From: Planctomycetaceae bacterium
GTDB taxonomy: Bacteria; Planctomycetota; Planctomycetia; Pirellulales; Pirellulaceae
NCBI GenBank assembly: GCA_005798335.1
Contig: SYJV01000199.1
Span: 1 to 41,009, forward strand
Direction: 5' to 3'
DNA length: 41,009 bases
This document shows positions 3,439 through 41,009 of this stretch, in pieces. The position numbers and the translations under genes were made by a program. The notes beneath the pieces are model-generated. The model ran no database searches and had not been told where the DNA came from. It saw only the letters and a program-made list of their open reading frames with translations. The stretch's first letter is position 1; each line of letters begins with the position of its first letter.

Positions 3439-3654
3439 GTGAGGTCAATTCGTCCGTTCACTAGAGACCAAAACTTTTTTGTAATAGTGATGTACATGCT
3501 GCGCGGCATTGGTGTCGAGACAGAATCTCCCATTTAGTAATTTGCTAGCATGCATGGAGAGTAACAAGAGTAGAGCAATTGTCCTCAATCGCTCCGCGAA
3601 CCCTCAATCGCTCGGAAAGCTGTCCTCAAATGCCTAGAAACTGTAATCGCTCAG
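3439..3654. other. Intergenic region upstream of fliG with short repeats
   Basis: No gene is seen. The minus-strand promoter of the fliG run should lie here, but no convincing -35/-10 pair was picked out. Three copies of aatcgctc occur between about 3585 and 3653, the first two inside a longer shared ctcaatcgctc. Their role is unknown. Confidence 0.4.
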
Positions 3655-5211: not shown

Positions 5212-5259
5212 TGAACCTCGACTCCTGTTTCAAGGCGAGCGGCAGATAGTTTCTTACCA

Positions 5260-5327
5260 ATACAAGCCCGAAGCGCAAGCGAGTGTATGCCAGGATTGAC
5301 GCACTCGCTTGCGCTTCGGGCTTGTAT
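5260..5327. repeat. Palindromic repeat, family A (acaagcccgaagcgcaagcgagtg), copy 1
   Basis: Perfect 26-bp arms at 5260-5285 and 5302-5327 around a 16-base loop. The element lies between the end of the Mo-subunit gene and the start of the sulfatase gene. Related copies are at 8307, 14101 and inside the composite at 30467. A further 15 bases (ttggtaaattcccat at 5339-5353) are shared exactly with the flank of copy 2. Confidence 0.9.
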
Positions 5328-5396
5328 TCGCTTAGGCCTTGGTAAATTCCCATCTGGGCTCGCCCAATTGCTGGTTCGACCTGACCAAAAGCAGGA

Positions 5397-8198: not shown

Positions 8199-8306
8199 GA
8201 ATCTCTCTGTGCTAGTTATGGATTTATGCGAAACCATTCTTGGTTGTGGAGGAAACTCTCGCAATGAGTAATTCCCAGCCCATCGTCAGTGTCCCGTTAG
8301 GTCAAC

Positions 8307-8374
8307 ACAAGCCCGACGCGCAAGCGAGTGCGTGCCTGCCTGGATTGACGCACTCGCTTGCGCGTCGGGCTTGT
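8307..8374. repeat. Palindromic repeat, family A, copy 2
   Basis: Perfect 27-bp arms (8307-8333 and 8348-8374) around a 14-base loop. Compared with copy 1 the arms read gacgcgcaagc in place of gaagcgcaagc, and both arms changed together, so the pairing is kept. It lies inside the apparent molybdenum hydroxylase operon, between the FAD and 2Fe-2S genes, where a hairpin could alter relative expression. Confidence 0.9.
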
Positions 8375-8405
8375 ATTGGTAAATTCCCATTGCCGTTCGC
8401 CTAAA

Positions 8406-13111: not shown

Positions 13112-13518
13112 TCGACAATTTCAAATGATAGCAATGGGAATTTCGCTTGACAGTCAGTCAGGTCCTATGCTGATAAATAGTGAACCGTTGGCGCTAGCCA
13201 CGGGCAGCGAAGGTGTGGCGACGCAAAAAAATCAAGACGTTCCAACATCTAATGATTTCGTCCACCGATTGGCGATTCCCATCGCCACATCTCCGGCAGC
13301 ACGTGGCGAGCGCCAACGGTTCACTTTCTATCAGCCCATTCAGGTCCTATGCACAGTGTCGGAATTCCGATTGTGGCGACTTGAGCGATGATTCTGCGTT
13401 TTACGGCTCACAACATTTTTCTCCAGATTGCCCACTGTCGCTTTATCGACGAGAGTACCATCACTTGACTATACTGGGTGGACGGTTTCAGCACGCGGCA
13501 CCCCCAGGGAGTTCATTC
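13112..13518. other. Divergent intergenic region holding a palindromic element
   Basis: This 407-base stretch lies between two divergent genes and should contain both promoters. Its main content is the inverted-repeat element bounded by 13-base direct repeats at 13158 and 13340. The plus-strand frame that opens at 13213 runs through the element and is not believed to be coding before 13519. Confidence 0.7.
13158..13352. repeat. Inverted-repeat element flanked by 13-bp direct repeats
   Basis: The sequence tcaggtcctatgc occurs at 13158-13170 and again at 13340-13352. Between them is a 169-base segment whose strongest arms are 13180-13202 and 13302-13324 (22 of 23 bases pair; core gtgaaccgttggcgct). 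Weaker pairing extends outward (gctgata/tatcagc) and inward (gtggcga/tcgccac). It resembles a small non-autonomous mobile element or a repeat-family unit. A 13-base duplication is longer than most insertion duplications, so the direct repeats may belong to the element. Confidence 0.75.
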
Positions 13519-13983: not shown

Positions 13984-14100
13984 GCGCGCCAATTTCAGAT
14001 TGGAAATGTGACCTGGACTTGATTTCGCAGACTGACTAGAAGATTTACTGACGCGGGATGATTCGCTTCCAGAGTCGTTAGACGAGCGGATCTTACCAAA

Positions 14101-14188
14101 TACCAGCCCGAAGCGCAAGCGAGTGCGTGCCAAGCTTGACACACTCGCTTGCGCGTCGTGCTGGTAGTATCGAAGTCGTGCTGGTAGC
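14101..14188. repeat. Palindromic repeat, family A, copy 3, with a duplicated end
   Basis: Arms 14101-14125 and 14142-14166 pair at 23 of 25 positions. The right end gtcgtgctggtag (14155-14167) is repeated at 14176-14188 after an 8-base spacer, a partial tandem duplication not seen in the other copies. The arms start taccagcc rather than tacaagcc, so this is the most diverged copy. Confidence 0.85.
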
Positions 14189-16476: not shown

Positions 16477-16718
16477 CTAGATGGACAGCGCTACTTTCAT
16501 TTGCAGTGGAAAGAACAAGCCGTTGCAGCGAAATCGTTTAACGAACGTGGGATAAGCTTCCAGCTTGTCAACCTGTAGCGGAGTTTCGCCATTGCTTGCA
16601 CAAGATATTGACAAGCTGGAAGCTTATCCCACGTTCGTTGAACGGCATTGGGGTTAAACGACGAAATGGCTAGGGCCAAAAGCCATGCCTTGCACACAAA
16701 ATGGCGCTGTCCAACTAG
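16477..16718. repeat. Nested palindrome: outer family-B arms around a 36-bp-arm hairpin
   Basis: Outer arms ctagatggacagcgct (16477-16492) and ggcgctgtccaactag (16703-16718) pair at 14 of 16. Inside, arms 16535-16570 and 16609-16644 pair over 36 bases with one mismatch and share the core cgtgggataagcttccagcttgtca. The element lies between two convergent genes and overlaps the stop codon of the minus-strand one. It may serve as a bidirectional terminator. Confidence 0.9.
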
Positions 16719-17878
16719 GCTTGCCTTAAACTATCAATGATCTTCATGCGCACAGCACGCATCGCGGGAAAGAGCCCGCCCAGCAAACCCATGACCAGTG
16801 CCATGATGACTCCACGAGCCAGCACCCACGGGCCAAAACGAAACGAAAATGTGATCTCGCTGAAGGTGGCCCAGTTCGCAGTCCCGGTGGACAATCCGTT
16901 CAATGGCAAAGTGGCTAGACAGCCCAGCGCGCCTCCCAGAGAACACAGAATGACCGATTCGATCAGAAACGACGCCAATACACTCGTCCGGCTAAATCCA
17001 ATGGCTCGCAACGTCCCAATCTCGCGCGCTCGACTCGCCACGGCCGCGTACATCGTATTAGCGGCCGCGAACATCGCCCCAAACGTAAGAAAGCCGCCAA
17101 TCAGATAACCCACAAATTGAATTGCATAGGAGGCGCTCATTTGATCTTCGAAATACCTTACTTCGGTGACCGCCTTCAGCTTGAATCGCTCCTCTTCTTG
17201 TAACTGTTGAATCAACCGATTGCGTGAGTTCACATCGGTCGCGCGGAAATTGACAATTGAGATCGCTCCCTGAATTCTTCGCGCACCAGTAAGATCATTC
17301 AGATCGGTCCAGACTTCTGATTCGGCAGCACTGCCTCCAGCCTCGAAAAAGCCGACGACCTTGAATGCAATCTTGTTGATTTCTAGTTCCTCGCCGATTG
17401 CCAAATTCTCAAATCGCTTGGCCATCGAGCGGCTAGTGACAATCTCATTGACGCCGAGCTGAATATCGCGGCCTTCCACTATCCGAAACTGGGGACGCAA
17501 CAACTTGCCGATTGGCTTGACGCCGCGGACGATCATGTTGGTCGTTCCACCCGCATTCCTCCGCGGTTTTGTGAGAATCGTCACGAATTCTGTCGAACAC
17601 AGAGGCTGTCCGTCCGGGCTCTTGGATATTCCCGGTAAATTGGATACTTCGCGAGCCGTCTGCGCAGTAATTACACTGGACGTTTCAGCATCGGCTCCCT
17701 TGCGCATCACGATCACGTCCAACGGGTCGCCACTAATCCGCAGGGCATGTTGAATTCCATCGCTCAGCCCAAACGTCAGCACTGTGGCCCACACGACCAA
17801 GCCAGACGCCAATACCGTCATCACGGTCGTGACCCAACGGACTCGAAGATTGCGAAGATTATAGGTAACTGGAATCAT
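16715..17878 (-). CDS. ABC transporter permease, FtsX/MacB type (second of two)
   Basis: A 387-residue permease with one N-terminal membrane helix (about 18-38), a large periplasmic MacB-like domain (about 40-255) and three C-terminal helices (about 262-290, 310-335, 352-375). The segment SRAREIGTLRAIGFSRTSV just before the third helix is the coupling region typical of FtsX-like permeases. It follows its paralogue at 17905 with a 26-base gap and probably forms a heterodimer with it, using the ATPase at 19059. The TAG stop lies inside the end of a repeat arm. Cargo unknown; this class usually acts in efflux or lipoprotein and mechanical signalling. Confidence 0.9.
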   Translation of the reverse strand: MIPVTYNLRNLRVRWVTTVMTVLASGLVVWATVLTFGLSDGIQHALRISGDPLDVIVMRKGADAETSSVITAQTAREVSNLPGISKSPDGQPLCSTEFVTILTKPRRNAGGTTNMIVRGVKPIGKLLRPQFRIVEGRDIQLGVNEIVTSRSMAKRFENLAIGEELEINKIAFKVVGFFEAGGSAAESEVWTDLNDLTGARRIQGAISIVNFRATDVNSRNRLIQQLQEEERFKLKAVTEVRYFEDQMSASYAIQFVGYLIGGFLTFGAMFAAANTMYAAVASRAREIGTLRAIGFSRTSVLASFLIESVILCSLGGALGCLATLPLNGLSTGTANWATFSEITFSFRFGPWVLARGVIMALVMGLLGGLFPAMRAVRMKIIDSLRQA

Positions 17879-30228: not shown

Positions 30229-30466
30229 TGGGCTATTTCACGCAACGAAAGGCACCATTCATCTGGCCGCTGGGGCGGCGCGAACCTGTTCGATAACGGA
30301 CGCATTCATTTGAGTCCGTTCCCAACATATCAAATGGAGTACAGGTCGTCGGTAGTCCTATGCGAATCCTATTTGAATGGTCAGTCCTAGTGGTGGATTC
30401 TCTCGCATCCTCGTTCAACTGTTGCCAAATGTCGAAGAAAGTCACCAGTCGTATTGAGGCGTAAAG
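30229..30466. other. Intergenic region upstream of the pseudogene
   Basis: No credible gene; open frames on both strands are short and unlike any recognised protein. It lies between the chimeric pseudogene and the large composite palindrome. Confidence 0.45.
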
Positions 30467-30604
30467 CCTAGTTGGACAGCGCCACTTTCTTGCGAAATAC
30501 AAGCCCGAAGCGCAAGCGAGTGAATTGTCGTAATCGTCGCAAGTTATTCACTCGCTTGCGCGTCGGGCTTGTATTCCGTAAGAAAGTGGCGCTGTCCAAC
30601 TAGG
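30467..30604. repeat. Composite 138-bp palindrome: family-B arms enclosing a family-A hairpin
   Basis: Arms of 59 bases (30467-30525 and 30546-30604) pair at 56 positions around a 20-base loop. The outer 22 bases (cctagttggacagcgccacttt) are family B; the inner part (tacaagcccgaagcgcaagcgagtga) is family A. At its right end the sequence ctag supplies the TAG stop of the minus-strand membrane protein. Confidence 0.92.
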
Positions 30605-31338
30605 ATTGCGCGATTCCGACGGCAGTACTCAGCAGTTTACGAGTCACGAAAATATGTCCTGAAATCGCGATCGTCACCAAGATGCTAGGTAGCCACACAT
30701 ACGGAAAATGAAGCACCCAAGTATTCACGTTGCTTGGATCGTCACCGAATAAACGTACCATGGGCGACGTTGTAATGGCAATCAATAAGATCATCAGCAA
30801 GCAAGCCCCGCCCCAAAATGTTCCAGCACCAGAGGAGCCGGCTGCTGACACGCCAGTTGAGCGCAAGAGCTGCTGAAATTACTGCTGCCGACAACCCCGT
30901 GAGAATGTCCAAGTTATAGCCAGAATACGATAGCTGAACCGGCATTATTCCTTCCGTTGCGGCGTGGTGCATGATCAGCTCCAGGGGAAGTCGAAATGCC
31001 TGAAGACCAACGAGCGCTGCGAACGATAGGTTTCCTGCAGCGAATTTACCTAATGGCGAAAATCCGATTAGGACCGAAATCGCGATCACGCCGGCAATCA
31101 TTAGCGCCATGGGAGGCGGCATGACATCGAGTCGAGTCAACCATCCTGACGTCGCTGCTGTTCCATTGGCGGCGAACCAGGAGATGACGCCCAGTCCTAG
31201 CCACTTTGCTCGGTGCGGTTTGCCAAGCGACATTTGCCCTAACCAAACCAACGCCACCAGCACTGCCAAACCGCCGATTCCTAACTCGCAAATCCAATTT
31301 GGCTTTGGTGGTAGAACAACGAATACTCCATCTGGCAT
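30600..31338 (-). pseudogene. Conserved membrane protein interrupted by a single-base frameshift
   Basis: One frame (31338 to 30742) gives 198 residues with about five hydrophobic helices and the segment LELIMHHAATEGIMPVQLSYSGYNLDILTG; it then loses hydrophobic character after WNILG. A second frame (open from 30866 to 30600) continues in register as GGACLLMILLIAITTSPMV and further helices. Removing one base from the ttttgggg run (plus-strand 30811-30818) rejoins them into about 245 residues with seven or so helices. It could be a sequencing error in a homopolymer or a real lesion. It lies 53 bases after the dehydrogenase gene. Function unknown; the HHAATEG segment is conserved in uncharacterised integral membrane proteins. 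Confidence 0.75.
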
Positions 31339-31391: not shown

Positions 31392-32333
31392 TTACGCGCC
31401 AATTCTCTTGAGAATCGTGTCGAGCGTTGGCCGAAGCGCGGTGGCACTGCTGCGAATACCTTGTAGTTCTTTGGGCCAGAGTTCTAACTCCAGCCGATCC
31501 AGCGAGCCGGCGCGCCCAACTACTGTCGGAACGGACAGCGCAACATCGCGAATTCCGTAACAGCCTGCCTGTACGGTACTAACCGGCAAGATACGGCGCT
31601 GATCGAGGATCACCGACTCGATCACGTCGCGAATGGCGATGCCGACAGCAAACCCGGCGCCTCCTTTCTTTGAAATCACTTCGGCCCCAGACCCCTTTGT
31701 GCGTGTAAAAATCTGATTACCGACGTTGTGATTCCAATTCGCAAATTTTTCAAGTGGCAGTCCTCCCACCGTGGCACTCGACCAAATCGGAACCATGCTG
31801 TCACCATGTTCACCCAAAATGAGCGCTTTGGTTTGCGTGGGTGGGACTTTGAGATTGTCCGCAATCAAGCTGCAAAAACGAATGGAGTCGAGCTGCGTTC
31901 CCAAGCCCAGAACTTGGCTGTTGGGTATTTTTAGCTTCTTGGCGGCGACATAGGTCAAGATATCAACCGGATTGCTGACAACCAACACAATTGCGGATGA
32001 TTTCAAGCCGACAGCGTTGATCTGAGCCAGTATCTGCACAAACAAGTCGGTGTTTCGGTTGATCAAATCTAAGCGAGATTCATCAGGTTTGCGGCGCAAG
32101 CCGGCTGTAATGCACACAACGTCACTGGTCGGAATATGCTGTTCGTAAGTTCCGGTTGCGATCACTTGATCAGCGACACTCGGCCCGCCATGCAGAATGT
32201 CCAGCGCTTGCCCGGCAACGAGGTTCTCGTTTACGTCCAGCAAGGCCAATTCACGAGCTTTTCCGCCGCATTGGAGCGCAAAAGCAGCGCAGGAACCTAC
32301 TAATCCACCACCACCGATAATGCTGACTTTCAT
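31392..32333 (-). CDS. Malate/lactate-type NAD dehydrogenase of the microcompartment locus
   Basis: A 313-residue LDH/MDH-family enzyme with the NAD-binding GGGGLVGS loop (7-14), D33 ending the second beta strand (NAD over NADP), D149 and R152 in LDSIRF, and catalytic H176 in GEHGDSM. At the substrate-specificity position the loop reads AGLRRKPDESR, with R81 where malate dehydrogenases have arginine and lactate dehydrogenases glutamine. In PVM-type loci this gene is usually described as a lactate/malate dehydrogenase that recycles NADH. No obvious encapsulation peptide is present. It is the last gene of the microcompartment run and follows the aldolase across a hairpin-bearing gap. Confidence 0.88.
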   Translation of the reverse strand: MKVSIIGGGGLVGSCAAFALQCGGKARELALLDVNENLVAGQALDILHGGPSVADQVIATGTYEQHIPTSDVVCITAGLRRKPDESRLDLINRNTDLFVQILAQINAVGLKSSAIVLVVSNPVDILTYVAAKKLKIPNSQVLGLGTQLDSIRFCSLIADNLKVPPTQTKALILGEHGDSMVPIWSSATVGGLPLEKFANWNHNVGNQIFTRTKGSGAEVISKKGGAGFAVGIAIRDVIESVILDQRRILPVSTVQAGCYGIRDVALSVPTVVGRAGSLDRLELELWPKELQGIRSSATALRPTLDTILKRIGA

Positions 32334-32380
32334 AATTGACCTGTAAATTGCAAATGAGACGTTAGGTTCGGAGTAGAAAT

Positions 32381-32440
32381 AAGTGGCATAGGCTTCCAGC
32401 CTGTGAGTCGCAAAACACAGGCTGGAAGCCTATGCCACTT
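32381..32440. repeat. Palindrome with perfect 25-bp arms between aldolase and dehydrogenase genes
   Basis: Arms 32381-32405 and 32416-32440 (aagtggcataggcttccagcctgtg) pair perfectly around a 10-base loop. The core is related to the inner hairpin at 16541 (cgtgggataagcttccagcttgt), at about 18 of 23 bases. As an RNA hairpin it could end or protect the aldolase transcript before the dehydrogenase gene. Confidence 0.9.
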
Positions 32441-32548
32441 TGCAAATCCGACATATATTCTTGCGCTGATCCTTAGTCGTGAAGACTCCACACTGAATTC
32501 CTGGTTGCCTCCGCGCGATGCACTGGGCACCTGCGAATCTTTGGTTCG

Positions 32549-33448
32549 CTAAGACTTGAGTTGTGCCATAACTTGATCGGTAATCAGCTTCACCAATTGT
32601 TCCATGTCCATTCCACTGGTCCCCGAGGCAGGTTGACCGGCAACTGCTTGCGATACAGCAGCCTGGACAGCTTGAGTTGCGGCCGGGCTCATCGCAGGTG
32701 GGTCGGGGAAGGCGTTGCGCTGGACGCCCGATGCGGCCCAACTGTCGCGAAAAATGTCGTTCGCACAGATGTCGCAGTTCTTGTATTCGTCGGTATTGCG
32801 CGGATCTGCGAAGCCCCACTTGTCCTTCAGAGCTAGTAGTTCTCGCTCTTCTTTCTCGCTGAAGTAGTTCACGCGCCCGAGCTGCCTGGATAGCATCAGA
32901 ATGCGGCAATACGCATCGAGAATCTCGGTCCACCAGTAAGCCCGTTCAACATCCTCGCCAAAGCTGACTGTGCCGTGATTGGCCAAGATGACGACGTTGC
33001 TCTTCTTGACAAAAGGAATAATTGTGTCGGCAAACGCTTGACCGCCAGGAGTTTCGTACTTGGTAATTGGCACATCGCCGAGGAACACTTCGACTTCTGG
33101 CAGTACACATTGCGGAATTGGTTCACGTGCTACTGCAAACGCCGTCGCATAGGGTGGATGGCAATGAACCACACTCTTGACGTCTGGCCTTTGCCGATAG
33201 ATTTCCAAGTGCAACAACGCTTCACTGCTGCGTTTTTTGCGCCCGGCGATTTGCTTGCCAGTCATATCAACCGTGCAAATATCATCGGGTTTGAGAAAGC
33301 CCTTGGAATGCATGGTGGGCGTGCAGAGAACTTCGTTGTCGCCGATGCGCACGGTGATGTTTCCATCATTCGCGGCGGCAAAGCCTTTGTTGTAGATGCG
33401 CCGTCCGATATCGCAAATGTCGAGTTTAATTTTGTGTGCGTTGACCAT
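32549..33448 (-). CDS. Class II aldolase (fuculose-phosphate type) with C-terminal encapsulation peptide
   Basis: A 299-residue zinc aldolase. It would split a 6-deoxyketose 1-phosphate (fuculose- or rhamnulose-1-phosphate) into dihydroxyacetone phosphate and lactaldehyde. The core (about 1-215) shows NDGNITVR, RSSE with E76, the zinc ligands H95 and H97 in HCHPP, and H158 in ANHGT. After the core comes an alanine-, glutamine- and proline-rich linker (about 245-280) and an amphipathic final helix, MEQLVKLITDQVMAQLKS, typical of encapsulation peptides. That tail places the enzyme inside the shell. PVM microcompartments of planctomycetes are known to process fucose and rhamnose through such an aldolase. 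No kinase or isomerase is present in this window. Confidence 0.93.
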   Translation of the reverse strand: MVNAHKIKLDICDIGRRIYNKGFAAANDGNITVRIGDNEVLCTPTMHSKGFLKPDDICTVDMTGKQIAGRKKRSSEALLHLEIYRQRPDVKSVVHCHPPYATAFAVAREPIPQCVLPEVEVFLGDVPITKYETPGGQAFADTIIPFVKKSNVVILANHGTVSFGEDVERAYWWTEILDAYCRILMLSRQLGRVNYFSEKEERELLALKDKWGFADPRNTDEYKNCDICANDIFRDSWAASGVQRNAFPDPPAMSPAATQAVQAAVSQAVAGQPASGTSGMDMEQLVKLITDQVMAQLKS

Positions 33449-33565
33449 TGTTTCTAAACAGTTAAGGATTTATGTGACTTCGAACAACTCACCAAGTACT
33501 ACACTACTTTGACACTACTTTCAACAAATCGTTGACCGAAATGTTGGCGGCTCGGACGCTGTCTG

Positions 33566-33880
33566 TTATGGGCTCCAGCGTACGGTCTTGACCACTTCCG
33601 GAGCAAACTGGACTTCGTCGAGGATGGCCGAGTTATAGGCGTCGACCGCTTTCGGTTGGGGCCGAAACGGCTGTGCCGCTTCGGCTCCGTCAGCAACTGC
33701 GATCAACGACTCCGAGCCAGCACCCAGATCATCCCAAACAACCACCAAATCGGGATCGATTGGCTCTGGGCCACCCATAACCGACGCGCCAACTGGCACT
33801 GTCGCCAGCAGTCGCGCACCGGTGTAGCTGGCGTGCGATCGACTGAGCGTGACGTTGCCGATTACTTTGAAAATCTGCAT
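33566..33880 (-). CDS. BMC-P pentameric shell vertex protein (EutN/CcmL family), copy 1
   Basis: A 104-residue vertex protein from ATG 33880, which has aggagt at good spacing; the longer frame to 33937 overlaps the upstream gene. It begins MQIFKVIGNVTLSRSH and contains VVVWDDLGAGSESLIAVADGAEA, the family pattern of a GAG turn followed by a V-x-x-GxxA stretch. BMC-P pentamers cap the corners of the icosahedral shell. The C-terminal VDAYNSAILDEVQF resembles EutN-family ends. Its start lies two bases past the stop of the unknown 232-aa gene, so the two are translationally linked. Confidence 0.92.
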   Translation of the reverse strand: MQIFKVIGNVTLSRSHASYTGARLLATVPVGASVMGGPEPIDPDLVVVWDDLGAGSESLIAVADGAEAAQPFRPQPKAVDAYNSAILDEVQFAPEVVKTVRWSP

Positions 33881-33882
33881 GA

Positions 33883-34581
33883 TTAACTCCTGCGCATCCA
33901 GGCTCGCACCAAGTTGCACACCGCTGCAACCGTCCAATTTCGAGCATTGACGATAATCAATTCCGCGCCAGTCTCATCGAGCGCACATTCTAGATCCGCC
34001 AGCACCGTTATTTGCGCAAACGCGTGTCCATTTTTGCTCGCTTGGCAGGCTGCTGCGAATGGTCGATCCGCAACCCACAAGACTCGATTGCCCGCGCACT
34101 GCAAATGCCGACTGATCGACTCCAGACAATTCGTTTCGCAACCAATCTTGACATCGACCAGCGAAGGAATTTGTTTGGCAACGCTGTTCAGCCACGTCGC
34201 CGTACCGCAAACTAGCGCCGGCCTTGATCCAGAAGTTACCATTGATTGCGAGCCAGCTCGTTGGGGCATTCGTTCGACTCTGGAAATCGCAATTTGTTTT
34301 CCGCGCAGCAGATCCTTGACCGCAGGTGTGACAACCGATTGGATCGGCACGCATACCTGCTTGATCCCCGCCAAGCGATCTTGGATGGTCGCAACGCTGA
34401 TCACCGGATCGTTTAATACAAGTAGAGCTGTGTCCGAAATCTTGTGCTGAGTAACTTGCTCGGCTTGTGCAGCAGAATTCTGTTCAGCAATACCTTGGCT
34501 CGTCAAAGGCGCGAAATCGCGCAGTCGCTGAAGCACGACTTGTACGACTCGTTCAATCTCTTCGGAGCTGGTGGTATTCAT
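33883..34581 (-). CDS. Unknown microcompartment-associated protein with N-terminal encapsulation-like helix, 232 aa
   Basis: Not a recognised enzyme. The N-terminus (SEEIERVVQVVLQRLRDF, residues 6-23) is an amphipathic helix much like those that target cargo into shells, followed by a Q/A/S-rich linker to about residue 45. The remainder looks alpha/beta, with LLVLNDPVISVATIQDRL and VTPAVKDLLRGKQIAISRVER; the latter resembles segments seen at the head of other microcompartment proteins. No nucleotide- or metal-binding motif is clear; C125, C148 and C152 are the noticeable cysteines. It lies between two BMC-P genes, 21 bases after one and 2 bases before the other. It is probably a cargo or assembly protein of the PVM compartment. 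Confidence 0.85.
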   Translation of the reverse strand: MNTTSSEEIERVVQVVLQRLRDFAPLTSQGIAEQNSAAQAEQVTQHKISDTALLVLNDPVISVATIQDRLAGIKQVCVPIQSVVTPAVKDLLRGKQIAISRVERMPQRAGSQSMVTSGSRPALVCGTATWLNSVAKQIPSLVDVKIGCETNCLESISRHLQCAGNRVLWVADRPFAAACQASKNGHAFAQITVLADLECALDETGAELIIVNARNWTVAAVCNLVRAWMRRS

Positions 34582-34602
34582 AAATGTTCAAACCGTAACG
34601 GA

Positions 34603-34869
34603 CTATCGCTGGTCGTCGACAATTCCCAGTACAGCCCAGCGAATCGGCGAATTTTCGACGCCAAACATTTGCCTAATTGCCGAACCATCGCTGGTCAACA
34701 TCACTCGATCTCCGGCGCCTGCTCCAAAACGGTCAACTGCCAAGATCGGCGGTCCGTCGGGACTAGCACCATCAGCCAACATCGGCTGAGTGAGTAACAG
34801 TTTCTGCGAATTTAAGGTCGGGTGCTTTACTGTCGCGTGAGCAAACCCAACTACCAAAGCAACTTGCAT
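34603..34869 (-). CDS. BMC-P pentameric shell vertex protein, copy 2
   Basis: An 88-residue EutN/CcmL-family protein, the shortest of the three. It opens MQVALVVGFAHATVKHPTLNSQKLLL and holds ILAVDRFGAGAGDRVMLTSDGSAIR, an excellent match to the family core (AVDxxGAGxGDxVLxxxGSSAR), and ends VLGIVD. Pentamers form shell vertices. It lies between the aldehyde dehydrogenase and the unknown 232-aa gene. Confidence 0.95.
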   Translation of the reverse strand: MQVALVVGFAHATVKHPTLNSQKLLLTQPMLADGASPDGPPILAVDRFGAGAGDRVMLTSDGSAIRQMFGVENSPIRWAVLGIVDDQR

Positions 34870-34949
34870 AGGTGTTTCAGTTTTTGTCTTTGAGCTAAAT
34901 TATCGAACCACGGGTACACGAATTTACACTCAGATTTTACGTGCGGATT

Positions 34950-36419
34950 TCAGTGATCATTCAGTCGTGGATCTCCCAAGATCCACAGATCCTCGATCAA
35001 GCTGCAGCGGCGCTCGCGCGTGAAAGTCAGCGGTGTGGTTACGCCTTCGCCGGTCGGACCAGCGATCGAGAACGACAGGTATCCTTCTCCTCCCAAACCG
35101 AGCGCGGCCATGCATGGTCCATTCTTAACGAACAGGGTCGTGTCCATCGCACGCGCCATTTTGGTCATGTTGCGCACGTCGCGCGAGTGAATCATGCTGG
35201 TATGGCGATACCCGTGTTCATATTGCTTGGCCAATTCGATACCGTGATCGACGTCGCGGCAGCGCACAAAGGGGACGAACGGCATCATTTGCTCGATGGA
35301 AACAAAAGGATGATCCTCCCTGGTTTCACCGAACACCAATTCGACTTTCGGGTCGATGGTCACGCCTGCGGCTGCGGCTAGTTTGGCCGCGTCCTGCCCC
35401 AGCAACTCTTTGGATGGCGCGAGATGTTTGTGAGTACCTTCGCCGACTTCGGTGAAGGCCGCAGCCGTCAGTTTGCTGATTTGCGAGTTGTTCAACGCCA
35501 CTGCGCCGGCGCGCTCCATCGCCGCCATCATTGCATCAAACACTTCGGCAACGACAAAGACCTCTTTTTCGGCAATGCACAGCAAATTATTGTCGTAGGC
35601 GGCGCCTTGAATGATGCAGCGTGCGGCTCGATCCAGATCGGCGGTTTGGTCGACAACTACTGGCGGATTTCCCGGTCCCGCCACGATGGCTCGCTTGCCG
35701 CTGTTGAGTGCGGCACGCGCAACGGCTGGTCCGCCCGTGACGCAGATCAACGCTACATCGCGGCTCTTGAAAATCGCGGCTGCAGATTCCAGCGACGGTT
35801 CGCGAATAACGCATATCAGATTGTCGACTCCAATGTCTTCGTAAATCGCTTGATTGAATCGCTTGACACCTTCGGCAGCGACTTTGCGACCACTGGGGTG
35901 CGGATTGACGACCAGTGTGTTGCCACCAGCGATCATGCTGACCGCGTTTCCGGTAATTGTCGGCAACGAGTGAGTTACCGGTGTGATGGCGCCGATCACT
36001 CCGAAGGGAGCGTGTTCGATCACGGCCAAGCCCTTATCACCGCTGAACGCTTGCGTAGTTAGAAATTCCGTTCCGGGAGCGCGTTCACCGAGCGTCTTGA
36101 GCTTTTCAATTTTATGGGGCAAGCGTCCAATCTTGGTTTCGTTCATCTCCATCGTGCCGAGTTCGACTGCTTGAGAAATGGAAATGCGACGAATGTGGTC
36201 GATAGCCTTGCGGCGGTCTTCCATGGGGCGAGTGCGCAGTAACTCAAAAGCGTCGCGCGCGGCAGCGACCGCTTGGTCGGCATTGTCAAACTGCCCAAAT
36301 TTTCCGGCGAAACCACGGGAGCATGTCGACCCACTGGCTGTAGTTTGGCCGACTTGCCCGCGAACCTCGCGAATGACTTGGGTTACGACACTGCGAATAA
36401 TGTCTTCACTAATTTGCAT
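34950..36419 (-). CDS. CoA-acylating aldehyde dehydrogenase with N-terminal encapsulation peptide
   Basis: A 489-residue enzyme of the PduP/EutE group, which oxidises an aldehyde (lactaldehyde here, by pathway inference) to its acyl-CoA with NAD. The catalytic cysteine is C281 in NNLLCIAEKEV, the PduP-type active-site block. The N-terminus MQISEDIIRSVVTQVIREVR is an amphipathic helix followed by a flexible linker (about 22-40), the usual arrangement for shell targeting of this family. Other landmarks are the VTGGPAVARAAL loop near 227-237 and AGPGNPPVVVD near 247-257. The start overlaps the upstream BMC-P gene by 11 bases, so they are translationally coupled. Confidence 0.95.
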   Translation of the reverse strand: MQISEDIIRSVVTQVIREVRGQVGQTTASGSTCSRGFAGKFGQFDNADQAVAAARDAFELLRTRPMEDRRKAIDHIRRISISQAVELGTMEMNETKIGRLPHKIEKLKTLGERAPGTEFLTTQAFSGDKGLAVIEHAPFGVIGAITPVTHSLPTITGNAVSMIAGGNTLVVNPHPSGRKVAAEGVKRFNQAIYEDIGVDNLICVIREPSLESAAAIFKSRDVALICVTGGPAVARAALNSGKRAIVAGPGNPPVVVDQTADLDRAARCIIQGAAYDNNLLCIAEKEVFVVAEVFDAMMAAMERAGAVALNNSQISKLTAAAFTEVGEGTHKHLAPSKELLGQDAAKLAAAAGVTIDPKVELVFGETREDHPFVSIEQMMPFVPFVRCRDVDHGIELAKQYEHGYRHTSMIHSRDVRNMTKMARAMDTTLFVKNGPCMAALGLGGEGYLSFSIAGPTGEGVTTPLTFTRERRCSLIEDLWILGDPRLNDH

Positions 36420-36744
36420 AATTCACACTCTGTTCATCTTTGCGGCTGTATACCGATTGTTTTTCAATGTTGACTTGATCGACGATACCAATGATCACGG
36501 TATCGATGGGTAATTTGTTGGTCTCAGGCGTAAAACGAGCACTGCTGCCTTGCACTATCAGCACCATGTCACCGACTCCGGCTCCGAGCATATCGACGGC
36601 CACGAAGGTGCGTCCCGTGGTGACTAATTTGTCTCGGTGGGTCGAGTCCAGTCGATAGGGCTCGACCACTAGCAGTTTGTGCCCTTTCATCGAGTCGACT
36701 TTTTGCGTTGCCACGACCGTTCCGGTCACTTTGGCGACGAACAT
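36409..36744 (-). CDS. BMC-P pentameric shell vertex protein, copy 3
   Basis: A 111-residue EutN/CcmL-family protein. It starts MFVAKVTGTVVATQKVDSMKGHKLL and holds FVAVDMLGAGVGDMVLIVQGSSAR, the consensus core of the family, then TVIIGIVDQVN. A C-terminal 15-residue polar extension (KQSVYSRKDEQSVNYAN) is not typical of short vertex proteins. Its 3' end overlaps the aldehyde dehydrogenase start by 11 bases. Confidence 0.95.
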   Translation of the reverse strand: MFVAKVTGTVVATQKVDSMKGHKLLVVEPYRLDSTHRDKLVTTGRTFVAVDMLGAGVGDMVLIVQGSSARFTPETNKLPIDTVIIGIVDQVNIEKQSVYSRKDEQSVNYAN

Positions 36745-36807
36745 GCTGTTACCCTCGTAGTTACTGATCTGCCGAACGCGCTATCACGTACAGTCGATCT
36801 GGTCACG

Positions 36808-37992
36808 TTACTTCACGATGCCGAGCGTCTGCCGCGCGACAACCAATTCTTCGTTGGTAGGAATGCACCATATTTGTGCTTTACTGGTCGCGGCGTCCAG
36901 CCGCGACTCACCCTTGCCCAATTGATTCTTGCTTTCGTCTAGGTCGATGCCCAGTTCACTGAGTCCCGAACAAACTGCGGATCGAATGCGTTTGCCGTTC
37001 TCACCGATCCCTCCGGTGAACACAATTGCATCCAAGCCTCCTAACGCGACCAGCATCGAGCCAAGTTGCCGACGAATCTCAGCGACATACACGTCCAGCG
37101 CCAGGCGAGCGTCCGCGTTGCCAGCGTCGGCGGCCATCTCCAGGTCGCGAATGTCGCCACTAACTCCGCCGGACAAGCCCAACAATCCGGCTTGTGTGGA
37201 TAGGTGTTTCAACACATCTTCGAGATTCATACCACTGTGTTGCATAAGCATTGGTAAGCAATACGGATCGAGATCGCCAACTCGGTTATTGTGGGGCAAG
37301 CCAGTCTGCGGGCTCATGCCCAACGAGGTCGCCACACTCTTCCCAGAATGGATCGCACACAAACTGCTCGAACCGCCAAGATGCAACGAAATCACGCGCG
37401 CGTTTTGACGATTTAATAGCTCGGCCGATCTTCCAGCGATGTAACGATGGCTAGCTCCATGGAAACCCCATTTGCGAATCGGCAGCGCATCCGACCAAGC
37501 TTTGGGCAACGCGTAATGTCGCCAAGCTTCGGGAATTGTGCGATGAAAATCTGTTTCAAACGCAGCCACCAGCGGAATGTCAGGAACTGTGGCGGCCAGT
37601 TGCCGCATTGCGGCTAGGTACGGCGGATTGTGGGCTGGAGCGACGGAATTTACTTGCTCCATCGCGTCGAGCACTTCATCGTTGATGCGAAACACGCCTT
37701 GCAGTCGGCCGCCATGCACCGCCTTGAACCCAATCGCTGAAATATCGTGAGCACTTGCGATACATCCCTGCTGCTTGTCAGTCAATTGCTCGACGCACGC
37801 CCGAACTGCGACGCCGTGGTGTGGCACTGCCATCTCCATTTCGCCACGATAGCTGCCGATTTCGATCGCGCACTTGCTCAAAGGCGAGCCGATGCGCTCG
37901 ACCGATCCTCGCGCCATTTGACGCTCGTCCGACATATCGAACAAACGATATTTGAAGCTCGTCGATCCGAGGTTCGCTACCAGTATTTTCAT
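36808..37992 (-). CDS. ackA: Acetate (propionate/lactate) kinase
   Basis: A 394-residue acetokinase from the ATG at 37992, which has aggagc upstream and gives the family start MKILVANLGSTSFKYRLFDM; a frame open to 38133 adds 47 residues unlike the family. Landmarks are FETDFHRTIPE, WGFHGASHRYI, HLGGSSSLCAI and FTGGIGENGKRIR. In this locus it would take the acyl-phosphate made by PduL and form ATP plus the free acid (lactate if the substrate is lactaldehyde). No encapsulation peptide is seen, as expected if the kinase works at or outside the shell. A degraded palindrome separates it from the BMC-H gene upstream. Confidence 0.95.
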   Translation of the reverse strand: MKILVANLGSTSFKYRLFDMSDERQMARGSVERIGSPLSKCAIEIGSYRGEMEMAVPHHGVAVRACVEQLTDKQQGCIASAHDISAIGFKAVHGGRLQGVFRINDEVLDAMEQVNSVAPAHNPPYLAAMRQLAATVPDIPLVAAFETDFHRTIPEAWRHYALPKAWSDALPIRKWGFHGASHRYIAGRSAELLNRQNARVISLHLGGSSSLCAIHSGKSVATSLGMSPQTGLPHNNRVGDLDPYCLPMLMQHSGMNLEDVLKHLSTQAGLLGLSGGVSGDIRDLEMAADAGNADARLALDVYVAEIRRQLGSMLVALGGLDAIVFTGGIGENGKRIRSAVCSGLSELGIDLDESKNQLGKGESRLDAATSKAQIWCIPTNEELVVARQTLGIVK

Positions 37993-38022
37993 CCTTGCTC
38001 CTAAGTGGGTGGACAGCGATTG

Positions 38023-38162
38023 ACTGTGGCTAGCCACAGTTGAATCCAACGACCGAACGTGGGATAACGAGCCAGTCAGCGCGCTAGTGCCGAAGCTCTC
38101 TGTTGAAGGTTCAACGTCAAGCTTCGTTGGCAATAGTCCAACCGCTGGCGCGTCCCACGTTA
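38023..38162. repeat. Degraded palindromic repeats between ackA and the first BMC-H gene
   Basis: A perfect 18-base palindrome (actgtggctagccacagt, 38023-38040) precedes a looser inverted repeat. The left part, cgaacgtgggataa (38054-38067), is identical over 14 bases to 16542-16555. The right end (cccacgtta, 38154-38162) contains the TAA stop of the BMC-H gene. This appears to be an eroded copy of the 16535 hairpin family. Confidence 0.65.
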
Positions 38163-38429
38163 GCCGAAAAAAGCTGTAGCCAAGCCTTCGGCGGGGCGCG
38201 GAATTACATGGCTGCCGACCAACTCGCCGACTTGCGATGCCGCGCTTGCTCCGGCATCGACTGCCGCGCGAACGCTACCTACATCGCCACTGACAATCGT
38301 CGTGACTAAGCCGCCGCCGATATCGACGCGCTTGACTATTTCGACGCTGGCCGCTTTAACCATTGCGTCAGTCGCTTCGACTAGTCCGATCAAACCCTTA
38401 GTTTCAATTAAGCCAATTGCTTTCTGCAT
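38160..38429 (-). CDS. BMC-H hexameric shell protein, copy 1
   Basis: An 89-residue single-domain BMC protein (PduA/EutM type). It begins [27 protein letters not shown], the canonical start, and has [17 protein letters not shown], the classic loop and helix, ending HVIPRP. Hexamers tile the shell facets and their central pores admit small metabolites; the pore loop reads VSGDVGSV, without the usual KVRGDVG arginine. The ribosome-binding site aagg is seven bases before the ATG. It follows the second BMC-H gene across a 234-base gap containing a strong hairpin. Confidence 0.97.
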
Positions 38430-38510
38430 GGTGCTACCTTATTCGTGTGTTCTTTTTACAGAGTGATTTAGTATCGCGGATGCTGGTAAGCATCGACAGG
38501 TTTTTTATTG

Positions 38511-38567
38511 TCGTCTTTCGCTCCGCGAAAGAATGATGTAACGCTACTTTCGCGGAGCGAAAGGCGA
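38511..38567. repeat. Hairpin between the two BMC-H genes (ctttcgctccgcgaaag)
   Basis: Arms 38511-38531 and 38547-38567 pair at 20 of 21 bases (the exception can be a G-T pair) around a 15-base loop. Each arm is itself a small palindrome (ctttcgc-tcc-gcgaaag), so two alternative folds exist. It lies in the transcript between the two shell genes and could attenuate or stabilise one of them. Confidence 0.85.
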
Positions 38568-38663
38568 CACTCATTGTTCGCCCGATGCTAAGTGGAACCG
38601 GGACGCATCTTTGGAGAGCCAATGTTGACTGAACTCGCGATGCGGCCTACGGTAGGCACTGTT

Positions 38664-38966
38664 TTACGAAACGCTGCTGGCCGGGCCGGTGACTTTGAGA
38701 ACCTTGCACAGATCTTCGTGGGGTCGCGCGATGACTTGCACGCTGACGACTTCTCCCACGCGTCCGGCGGCAGCGGCTCCAGCATCGGTGGCAGCTTTGA
38801 CGGCGGCGACATCACCAGTCACAAATGCGGATACCAGTCCACTGCCCACTTTGTCCCAACCTAGGAATTGCACGTTGGCAGCTTTCATCATGGCATCGGT
38901 CGCTTCGACCAAGGAAATGAATCCCTTGGTCTCGATCATGCCTAGAGCTTCTGAAATCTTAGCCAT
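38664..38966 (-). CDS. BMC-H hexameric shell protein, copy 2
   Basis: A 100-residue single-domain shell protein. It begins [30 protein letters not shown] and contains [20 protein letters not shown], ending [13 protein letters not shown] plus a short polar tail. It differs from the other BMC-H by a longer N-terminus and C-terminus, so the two are likely to occupy different positions or form mixed facets. A strong ribosome-binding site (gaggag) precedes the ATG. It lies 166 bases after pduL. Confidence 0.97.
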
Positions 38967-39132
38967 TCTTTAGTTTCTCCTCATTTCAAGGTGAATTCGT
39001 TGGCTGGATTGCCAACTGGTTATCGGATCGTTCTGCGTCTGGCCTCAAGGACTCGGCGAGTGCGATTGAGATATCACTTTCGACGAAGTCTTTTGGCCGG
39101 TCATCAGACGATGGAATTAACGAATCAACGGT

Positions 39133-39846
39133 TTAGTGCTCGTGGCACTTACAGGGTTGCCCCTGTGGTTTGAGCGAAATCTCGGTCGCGGCGTCCAAGT
39201 TGCACGCGTTGCCTTCATCGGTATCGATATGTACTTCCAACTTACTGGTCGCGTCGGCGCGTACGAGCAAGTCTTCGAACGCTACGCTACATTGTGGACT
39301 CTTGATGCTCAGCGTCATGAAATCGCCATTCTTGACGCCGTAGTTCTTGGCGTCATCGTGGCTCATGTGAACGTGTCGCGCGGCGCGTATGACTCCAGCG
39401 GATAACTCAACGGCACCAGCCGGCCCAACTAAGATGCAGCCAGGCGTTCCTTGGATATCACCACTGTGCCGCACCGGCGTTTCGATGCCAAGCGAAATCG
39501 CATCAGTCAGCGCCAGCTCGACTTGACTATGTTTGCGAGTCGGTCCCAGCACACGTACTTGCGGCAACATCCTGCGACGAGGTCCGACGATCATGACGGT
39601 TTCTTCCGCAGCGTAGAATCCGTCTTGGTAAAGCGCTTTGCCAGGCGTTAACTTTCGGCCAGGTCCAAACAGCTTTTCGACATGTTCGTCGGTCAAATGT
39701 ACGTGCCTTGCCGAAATACTGACCATCAGCTTGGAGGGTCCGCCGCGCTGTTCATTAGTAGTTAGCGGCATATACTCCGCCAGCGACTTGTGGACGATTT
39801 GGCGGACCAAAGATTCGATTTGCGATCGGTCGACGATTGTTGTCAT
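39133..39846 (-). CDS. pduL: PduL-type phosphotransacylase with N-terminal encapsulation peptide
   Basis: A 237-residue PduL-family enzyme, which exchanges CoA for phosphate on an acyl group to regenerate CoA inside the shell. Two copies of the metal-binding motif are visible: ARHVHL with H48 and H50, and ARHVHM with H158 and H160; H206 in [11 protein letters not shown] is a further ligand. The first 25 residues ([18 protein letters not shown]) form an amphipathic helix and linker, the usual PduL encapsulation peptide. The C-terminus ends CKCHEH, an extra Cys/His cluster not needed by the family. The gene is the first structural gene after the regulator, 25 bases past its stop. Confidence 0.95.
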
Positions 39847-40825: not shown

Positions 40826-40984
40826 TCTCTGCGGATTGAGCGACCTTGTTGATTGGAATCAGGAAGCACAGCACCTGCCTAGCTAGGGATGGCTTGACGA
40901 TTGCGTACCCATTGGGTTGGTGCACCGAGTGTGGACAAGTGTTGGTTTCTGCGCTGTAGACATTTTATTTTTCTTACGAGAATA

Positions 40985-41001
40985 TAGTTGGACAGCGCCA
41001 C
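40985..41001. repeat. Single arm of a family-B palindrome at the window edge
   Basis: The sequence tagttggacagcgccac matches the outer arms at 30467 and (inverted) 16703 and 30588. The partner arm, if present, lies beyond the right edge. Confidence 0.8.
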
Positions 41002-41009
41002 CTTTTGGC

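Follow-up and report, generated by a model that had tools for sequence, protein, structure and literature searches.

A 138-bp palindrome in which one repeat family is nested inside another raises a simple question: do the two repeats insert into each other copy after copy, or has a single composite element spread as a unit? The palindrome lies in the 41,009-nt stretch of planctomycete DNA analysed here (the window) and comprises an outer module (the shell, family B) around an inner hairpin (the core, family A). A preliminary description of the locus had suggested that such repeats insert into each other's loops or share a mobilising enzyme.

Anatomy of the palindrome and related repeats in the window

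The arms of the palindrome (30467-30525 and 30546-30604) are mismatched at 3 of 59 positions, an inverted-repeat search lengthens them to 62 nt (94% complementary, spacing 20 nt), and the DNA fold of 30464-30607 (-73.2 kcal/mol, z -18.7) was equalled by none of 200 shuffles. The 138-bp palindrome with 59-base arms and three mismatches of the preliminary description is borne out. Copies of the shell start with TTGGACAGCGCC and finish with its complement, and short direct repeats lie outside. The element proper is the 128-bp segment 30472-30599, and the CTAG that flanks it on each side is a target duplication. The features of the locus are as follows.

30472-30599: 128-bp element, probable chimeric MITE with IS701-type ends around an A hairpin (inverted-repeat search, fold, flank analysis)
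30468-30471: target duplication CTAG, left copy (sequence reading)
30600-30603: target duplication CTAG, right copy (sequence reading)
30472-30488, forward strand: left terminal inverted repeat TTGGACAGCGCCACTTT (sequence; ends common to IS701 elements of relatives)
30583-30599, reverse strand: right terminal inverted repeat (sequence; ends common to IS701 elements of relatives)
30496-30522, forward strand: A half-unit (REP-like), left arm of the core (inverted-repeat search, genome-wide pattern count)
30523-30548: loop AATTGTCGTAATCGTCGCAAGTTATT with the shell-specific TTGnCGTAA (loop comparison, held-out loop test)
30549-30575, reverse strand: A half-unit, right arm of the core (inverted-repeat search)

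Elsewhere in the window, the following related features were found.

16481-16714: second element, 234 bp, B2 shell and C core (inverted-repeat search, sequence comparison)
16535-16571 and 16608-16644: core arms of the second element (inverted-repeat search)
16477-16480 and 16715-16718: CTAG duplication of the second element (sequence reading)
40988-41009, forward strand: third shell end, cut by the contig end, with ATAG before it at 40984-40987 (inverted-repeat search)
5259-5328: free A palindrome without shell (inverted-repeat search)
8304-8377: free A palindrome without shell (inverted-repeat search)
14099-14166: free A palindrome without shell (inverted-repeat search)

The claim that the same outer module recurs at 16477-16718 holds for the ends, which are the same module and enclose a different hairpin, but not for the sequence just inside them, which is that of another shell subfamily, B2. 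The outer module was found once more at 40984-41009, where the contig end cuts it.

Other repeats were noticed in passing. A free hairpin, AAGTGGCATAGGCTTCCAGCCTGTG (32381-32440, 25-nt perfect arms), resembles the C core of the second element; an inverted repeat at 13169-13335 (40-nt arms, 88%), which includes GTTGGCGCTAGCCACGG, resembles by eye the shell cores of genome G003; and CGCTCCGCGAA occurs at 3578-3600 and 38507-38569, where 38509-38569 form a hairpin, and a shell (L230) in genome G007 has a similar repeat next to it. The genes at 31392-39846 match lactate/malate dehydrogenase, class II aldolase, aldehyde dehydrogenase and phosphate propanoyltransferase, a set reminiscent of a planctomycete microcompartment cluster.

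Copy number and distribution

The host genome (8,462,909 bases in 558 contigs) contains 85 matches to the 144-bp palindrome, both strands of the same sites being counted. The shell-end pattern, with one mismatch allowed, was found at 165 places in the host, against 0 for the reversed control; the count of 323 obtained with two mismatches was discarded because the reversed control gave 280, which marks most of it as noise. Several host contigs end within shells. Across genomes, the end pattern was matched in 50 of the 147 searched, host included, many with only one or two matches, and the reversed pattern itself gave single matches in eight. Paired ends with 98-127 bases between them were recovered in one contig scan as 30 stretches in 13 genomes: 15 in RI_301, 3 in bin.5, 2 in H1_MAG_00040 and one in each of ten others. 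Eleven of these 13 genomes are assigned to planctomycete groups, among which we count Gemmataceae and Singulisphaera.

The shell ends match those of IS701-family elements

Target duplications were assessed on 91 short elements, namely those with both flanks among the genomes gathered for this count. Identical 4-bp flanks were observed in 61 of the 91, compared to 15.9% after re-pairing of the flanks, and 85 had 4-bp flanks that were exact or one mismatch off. Registers 2, 3 and 5-8 each gave 0/91, and register 1 gave 7/91, which is the chance level. The 61 exact flanks were CTAG (16), TTAG (16), CTAA (15), TTAA (7), TTAC (3), ATAG (2), TTGA (1) and CTGA (1), so that 54 conform strictly to YTAR. 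Twenty-four of the 30 elements without exact 4-bp repeats are one base off, and at least one of the remaining inexact cases is a chance pairing within an IS701 locus (L294). In the window, the stop codon of the reverse-strand ORF 16715-17878 lies in the right CTAG (16715-16718) of the second element, and 3 of 20 host elements (L013, L044, L048) adjoin an ORF stop in the same way; YTAR carries TAR on either strand, so the duplication restores the stop codon.

A candidate source for these ends was found in relatives of the host. The PF13546 profile matched in 6 of 16 genomes (15 picked for shell ends, plus the host). In one of them, G038, a 1632-bp element is present twice, its ends being exactly those of the MITE, with CTAG on both sides and a PF13546 gene inside. 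This gene is split across two frames, and its open halves match NCBIfam IS701 (7.5e-37 and 3.2e-38) with scores of 127 and 132 bits, which are under the whole-protein cut-off of 150. A homologue of the IS701 gene half was present in 29 of 241 genomes of the family. At 9 of the 30 homologue loci returned (in 8 genomes, none the host), the gene lies between both ends, which are 1.6-1.8 kb from each other; the flanks of these nine are identical 4-bp repeats in seven cases, match at 3/4 positions in one and are cut by a contig end in the last. The other 21 loci are without both of these ends: three (L300, L301, L303) are bounded by TACTACAGCGCTA or other related ends, with CTAG on either side, several of the rest are one-ended, and others have no convincing pair. 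In the host draft (558 contigs), neither the PF13546 profile nor the homologue search yielded an IS701 match, and among the ORFs of three single-ended shells (L032, L040, L056) no hidden transposase was recognised by eye. The host's own IS701 partner is either missing from this draft or lost. A MITE does not strictly require an autonomous partner in the same genome.

These observations compare well with the description of the IS701 family in PMC2266710, where 4-bp duplications are given for almost all elements: ends and duplications are alike, and full elements with the same ends occur in relatives. The shell ends fit 5 of the 7 defined positions of the published IS701 end consensus by our own reading, a consensus which the same source describes as unrepresentative of the family as a whole. 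The elements described here are longer (1.62-1.79 kb versus the 1400-1550 bp listed there), and the MITE has a REP-like core, unlike IS701-family elements. As judged from sequence, the outer ends belong to an IS701-family DDE element that makes 4-bp duplications.

Could the ends come instead from another DDE family, the link to IS701 being indirect? IS630/Tc1 was tried first as their source because CTAG contains TA, and IS5 also makes YTAR duplications, as stated in PMC10359306. However, the 2-bp register was seen in 0/91 elements, none of the four host PF13358 loci has paired ends, and neither has any of the five host PF01609 loci, a profile that covers only part of IS5-type transposases. Furthermore, the IS701 elements of relatives have the ends on both sides, which mostly refutes such an origin, and we regard it as extremely improbable. 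The short non-coding Correia and RUP elements, IS630-derived MITEs with inverted ends that are thought to be moved in trans (PMC2817692), are alike in being short, non-coding and bounded by inverted ends, but their transposase family and ends are different, and the 2-bp register is not that of the elements studied here.

The inner hairpin and a RAYT-like gene

A search for a RAYT, as proposed in the preliminary description, did turn up a RAYT-like gene between A units, with a marginal Pfam score. The gene (G000:C3:9339-9827, host locus L074) encodes a RAYT-like HUH/Y1 protein and is flanked by A units on both sides. It scores just over the cut-off with Pfam Y1_Tnp (23.8 bits versus 23) and under it with NCBIfam IS200 (20.2 bits versus 55); HxH and Y are invariant in the 6 aligned homologues, and Y----Q is found, by our own reading, in 4 of the 6. 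The host has 17 Y1_Tnp matches, and L074 is the only one with A units around the gene. Three other host Y1_Tnp loci were considered and set aside: L069 has a single A half-unit far from the gene, L072 has a D-type palindrome about 1.3 kb off, and at L073 (1-540) a B2 shell end with a D core continues, close to a contig end, into a fragment of a Y1_Tnp gene.

RAYT-like homologues were matched in 9 of 20 genome entries, among them the host; two of the entries, G030 and G154, are the same genome. Of 10 RAYT-like loci examined for inverted repeats, three (the host's and two of G153) lie between clean palindromes and two (in G003 and G158) between untidy ones, and none were detected at L270, L274, L275, L277 and L278; at L270 (G007), A-type units in direct orientation flank the gene. 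The idea that free A palindromes occur only alongside a RAYT-like gene was abandoned: RI_301 agrees with it (neither homologue nor free A was seen), but G155 contradicts it, having free A palindromes and no matched homologue.

The foot of a REP is of the GTAG type, or CnGA for class 3; the A unit, by reading, is without GTAG and contains CCGA. Class 3 TnpAY1 has the Y----Q motif and is reported mainly from Planctomycetes, according to PMC6006769, and the arrangement described there for REP/REPIN with RAYT, in which palindromes in high copy number surround an HUH/Y1 gene with the Y----Q motif, is also that observed here. The in-shell hairpin differs from REP/REPIN in that it is enclosed by IS701 ends and has its own loop. 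The free A hairpins may well be moved by the RAYT-like enzyme. Two transposition systems are involved, IS701-family DDE for the outer ends and one that goes with an HUH/Y1 gene for the inner family; the shared mobilising enzyme envisaged initially is not supported.

Modularity of shell and core

The 37 complete host shells (both flanks present) contain A (19), D (10), C (4), C and D together (2), A' (1) or no core (1), the coreless one (L201) being 35 bp long, just the two ends. Conversely, the host genome contains the A half-unit 730 times (none for the reversed control), and the host loci examined, which were chosen largely for shells, contain 33 half-units inside complete shells and 50 outside, some of the latter sitting in shells cut by contig ends. 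Shell and core are therefore separable, and the earlier proposal of two modular repeat families is supported, since they occur both together and apart. A single fixed repeat, with outer and inner parts always together, is not what the host genome contains.

The 116 distinct shell ends at the host loci examined comprise 54 that open onto A, 48 of the B2 type (30 right, 18 left), 13 others (some with further core types and some by chance) and one that is cut. The B2 shell exchanges cores: it measures 209 bp around D, 234 or 243 bp around C, and 341 bp when it contains the two of them, and in the 341-bp shells C and D occur in either order (L035, L037). In other genomes, at least five kinds of core were distinguished by eye across the 13 with paired ends; G007 and G003, which belong to the window's genus, have another core type in the shells examined, and G061 has four identical 101-bp shells without recognised core. 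A 92-bp shell in G007 (L228, 324-415) is without a 48-bp piece of the 140-bp form (L086, 2710-2849); since this piece sits between two GGCTAA repeats, the 92-bp shell is a deletion derivative or an empty form.

The extent to which A is found in shells varies. In RI_301, 15 of 15 A palindromes seen sit in shells; 11 of them were gathered only via the shell pattern and the other four were reached by the arm pattern, one of these being in a shell only with two mismatches allowed in the ends. Among the loci returned for other genomes, arm-pattern sites fall inside a strict shell in 3/6 cases for G155, 1/4 for G152, 1/5 for G030 and 0/6 for G007.

One composite lineage or repeated nesting

The loop of the A hairpin distinguishes most in-shell copies from free ones. 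In-shell A loops of several genomes have TTGnCGTAA in common, and the loop pattern, although drawn from the same data, is present in 39 of 54 in-shell or half-shell A loops versus 0 of 29 free ones. Five of the 14 half-shell A loops escape this simple pattern: one departs from it through point changes only, and another, that of the host half-shell L053, is plainly of the free type. We also scored loops with a matrix trained on in-shell loops from six other genomes (threshold, 95th percentile of shuffled loops), the motif having been noticed in these data before this held-out test: all 18 host in-shell loops (14 distinct) passed, versus 2 of 29 free loops and 0 of 12 free host loops. The scores differ between in-shell and free loops (Mann-Whitney p 7e-9; within the host, 2e-6), with p values that are too small because the copies are related. 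When 11 composites from seven genomes were aligned, ends and arms were conserved and linkers variable. The A arms are of the local REP variety: CAAGCCCG in the host, CAAGCACG in RI_301 and CAAGCTCG in L104.

Direct traces of insertion were also sought. None of the 37 complete host shells was recognised as an A-type shell that lacks its core yet preserves the insertion point. In 14 same-genus genomes, the query for an orthologous empty site matched in its repeat parts only, plus a 44-bp match to the neighbouring ORF. As for paralogous empty sites, 276 BLAST matches were obtained for 89 joined flanks, 6 of which span the junction: five are the element's own locus and one is weak (L230 versus L268).

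The shell-specific loop suggests that one old composite was amplified as a unit, and the half-shells with free-type loops make core exchange likely too. We therefore favour an A composite that is old and forms one chimeric MITE lineage, with occasional core exchange being likely, over repeated fresh insertion into loops; the other cores are best seen as separate MITE families. The competing account is the Russian doll of the preliminary description, in which a RAYT-like enzyme would place a pair of local REPs at the centre of an existing IS701 MITE again and again, lineage by lineage. It would accommodate the local REP type of the arms, the several core kinds within one genome, the free-type loop of L053 and the end-core linkers, whose variation between genomes is what separate origins would also give. 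However, it is at odds with a loop motif that is common to in-shell A of different genomes and absent from free ones, and with the 37 host shells, among which the only coreless one, L201, consists of ends alone. We consider it improbable. Insertion into loops, as first suggested, was never directly seen, and the common in-shell loop favours amplification as a unit, although the free-type loop of L053 suggests that cores may also exchange.

A possible structural role for the palindrome

The palindrome might also be kept for a structural or regulatory role, as a terminator or mRNA stabiliser, its mobility being incidental or past. The very stable fold speaks for such a role, and so does the likeness between left-arm and right-arm linkers among 20 host copies, which is higher within a copy than between copies (0.852 versus 0.781; 0 of 2000 permutations), the relatedness of the copies being uncontrolled in this comparison. 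Hairpin-templated repair would explain this likeness as well as selection would. Moreover, the linkers of the RI_301 shells are non-complementary by eye, which indicates that one continuous hairpin is unneeded for spread; the distribution is patchy, as the 50 of 147 genomes above show; and the preference for convergent intergenic sites that was looked for is not seen, crude ORF calls placing the 20 host elements in tandem (11), convergent (4) or divergent (3) contexts or inside a called ORF (2). Taken together, these points make retention for a structural role very unlikely.

Proposed origin and significance

We conclude that the palindrome is probably a chimeric MITE made of IS701 ends and a REP-like core, and that the A composite probably arose once and spread by IS701 transposition. 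An IS701 transposase would recognise TTGGACAGCGCCACTTT at both ends of the MITE and insert it at YTAR-like sites, thereby producing the 4-bp duplication; this action, like the mobility of the chimera as a whole, is deduced from the anatomy of the elements. The inner part would be a family A REP-like hairpin from the population served by the RAYT-like HUH/Y1 enzyme. The A-type composite would have a single origin, in which IS701 ends came to surround a REP-like pair, and it would have spread among planctomycete genera via IS701 transposition, ends and TTGnCGTAA loop being retained while its arms came to resemble the local REP variety. IS701-type MITEs with unrelated palindromic cores exist alongside. 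A further scheme, in which IS701 spreads the composite by its ends and the REP arms exchange with RAYT-served REPs, is possible but tentative; if true, the shell would be a carrier with fixed ends whose palindromic core is replaced or converted.

The closest precedent is provided by PMC3733652 (2013), which describes REP dimers within palindromes in A. variabilis (GTAG-15) and H. neapolitanus (CGTC-1): as here, a REP pair lies inside a longer palindrome that is repeated in the genome. There the outer palindrome is left unidentified and REP-less palindromes were not found in those two species; for the shell described here, by contrast, a transposon source can be named, direct repeats are present and other cores occur. 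What is new is the IS701 identity, the shell-specific loop and the core swapping. In the titles and abstract openings of the open-licence PMC literature, we recognised no IS701 MITEs with REP cores. The same hybrid is present in several related bacteria: it is real and fairly unusual, similar nestings having been glimpsed before.

The outer element now has a likely source, with partner transposons in relatives, and a loop motif that separates most in-shell from free hairpins; the finding offers an annotation marker for such elements in planctomycete drafts. It also raises a testable question, namely whether one non-coding element is a meeting point of two unrelated transposition systems, of which one may carry the other between genomes.
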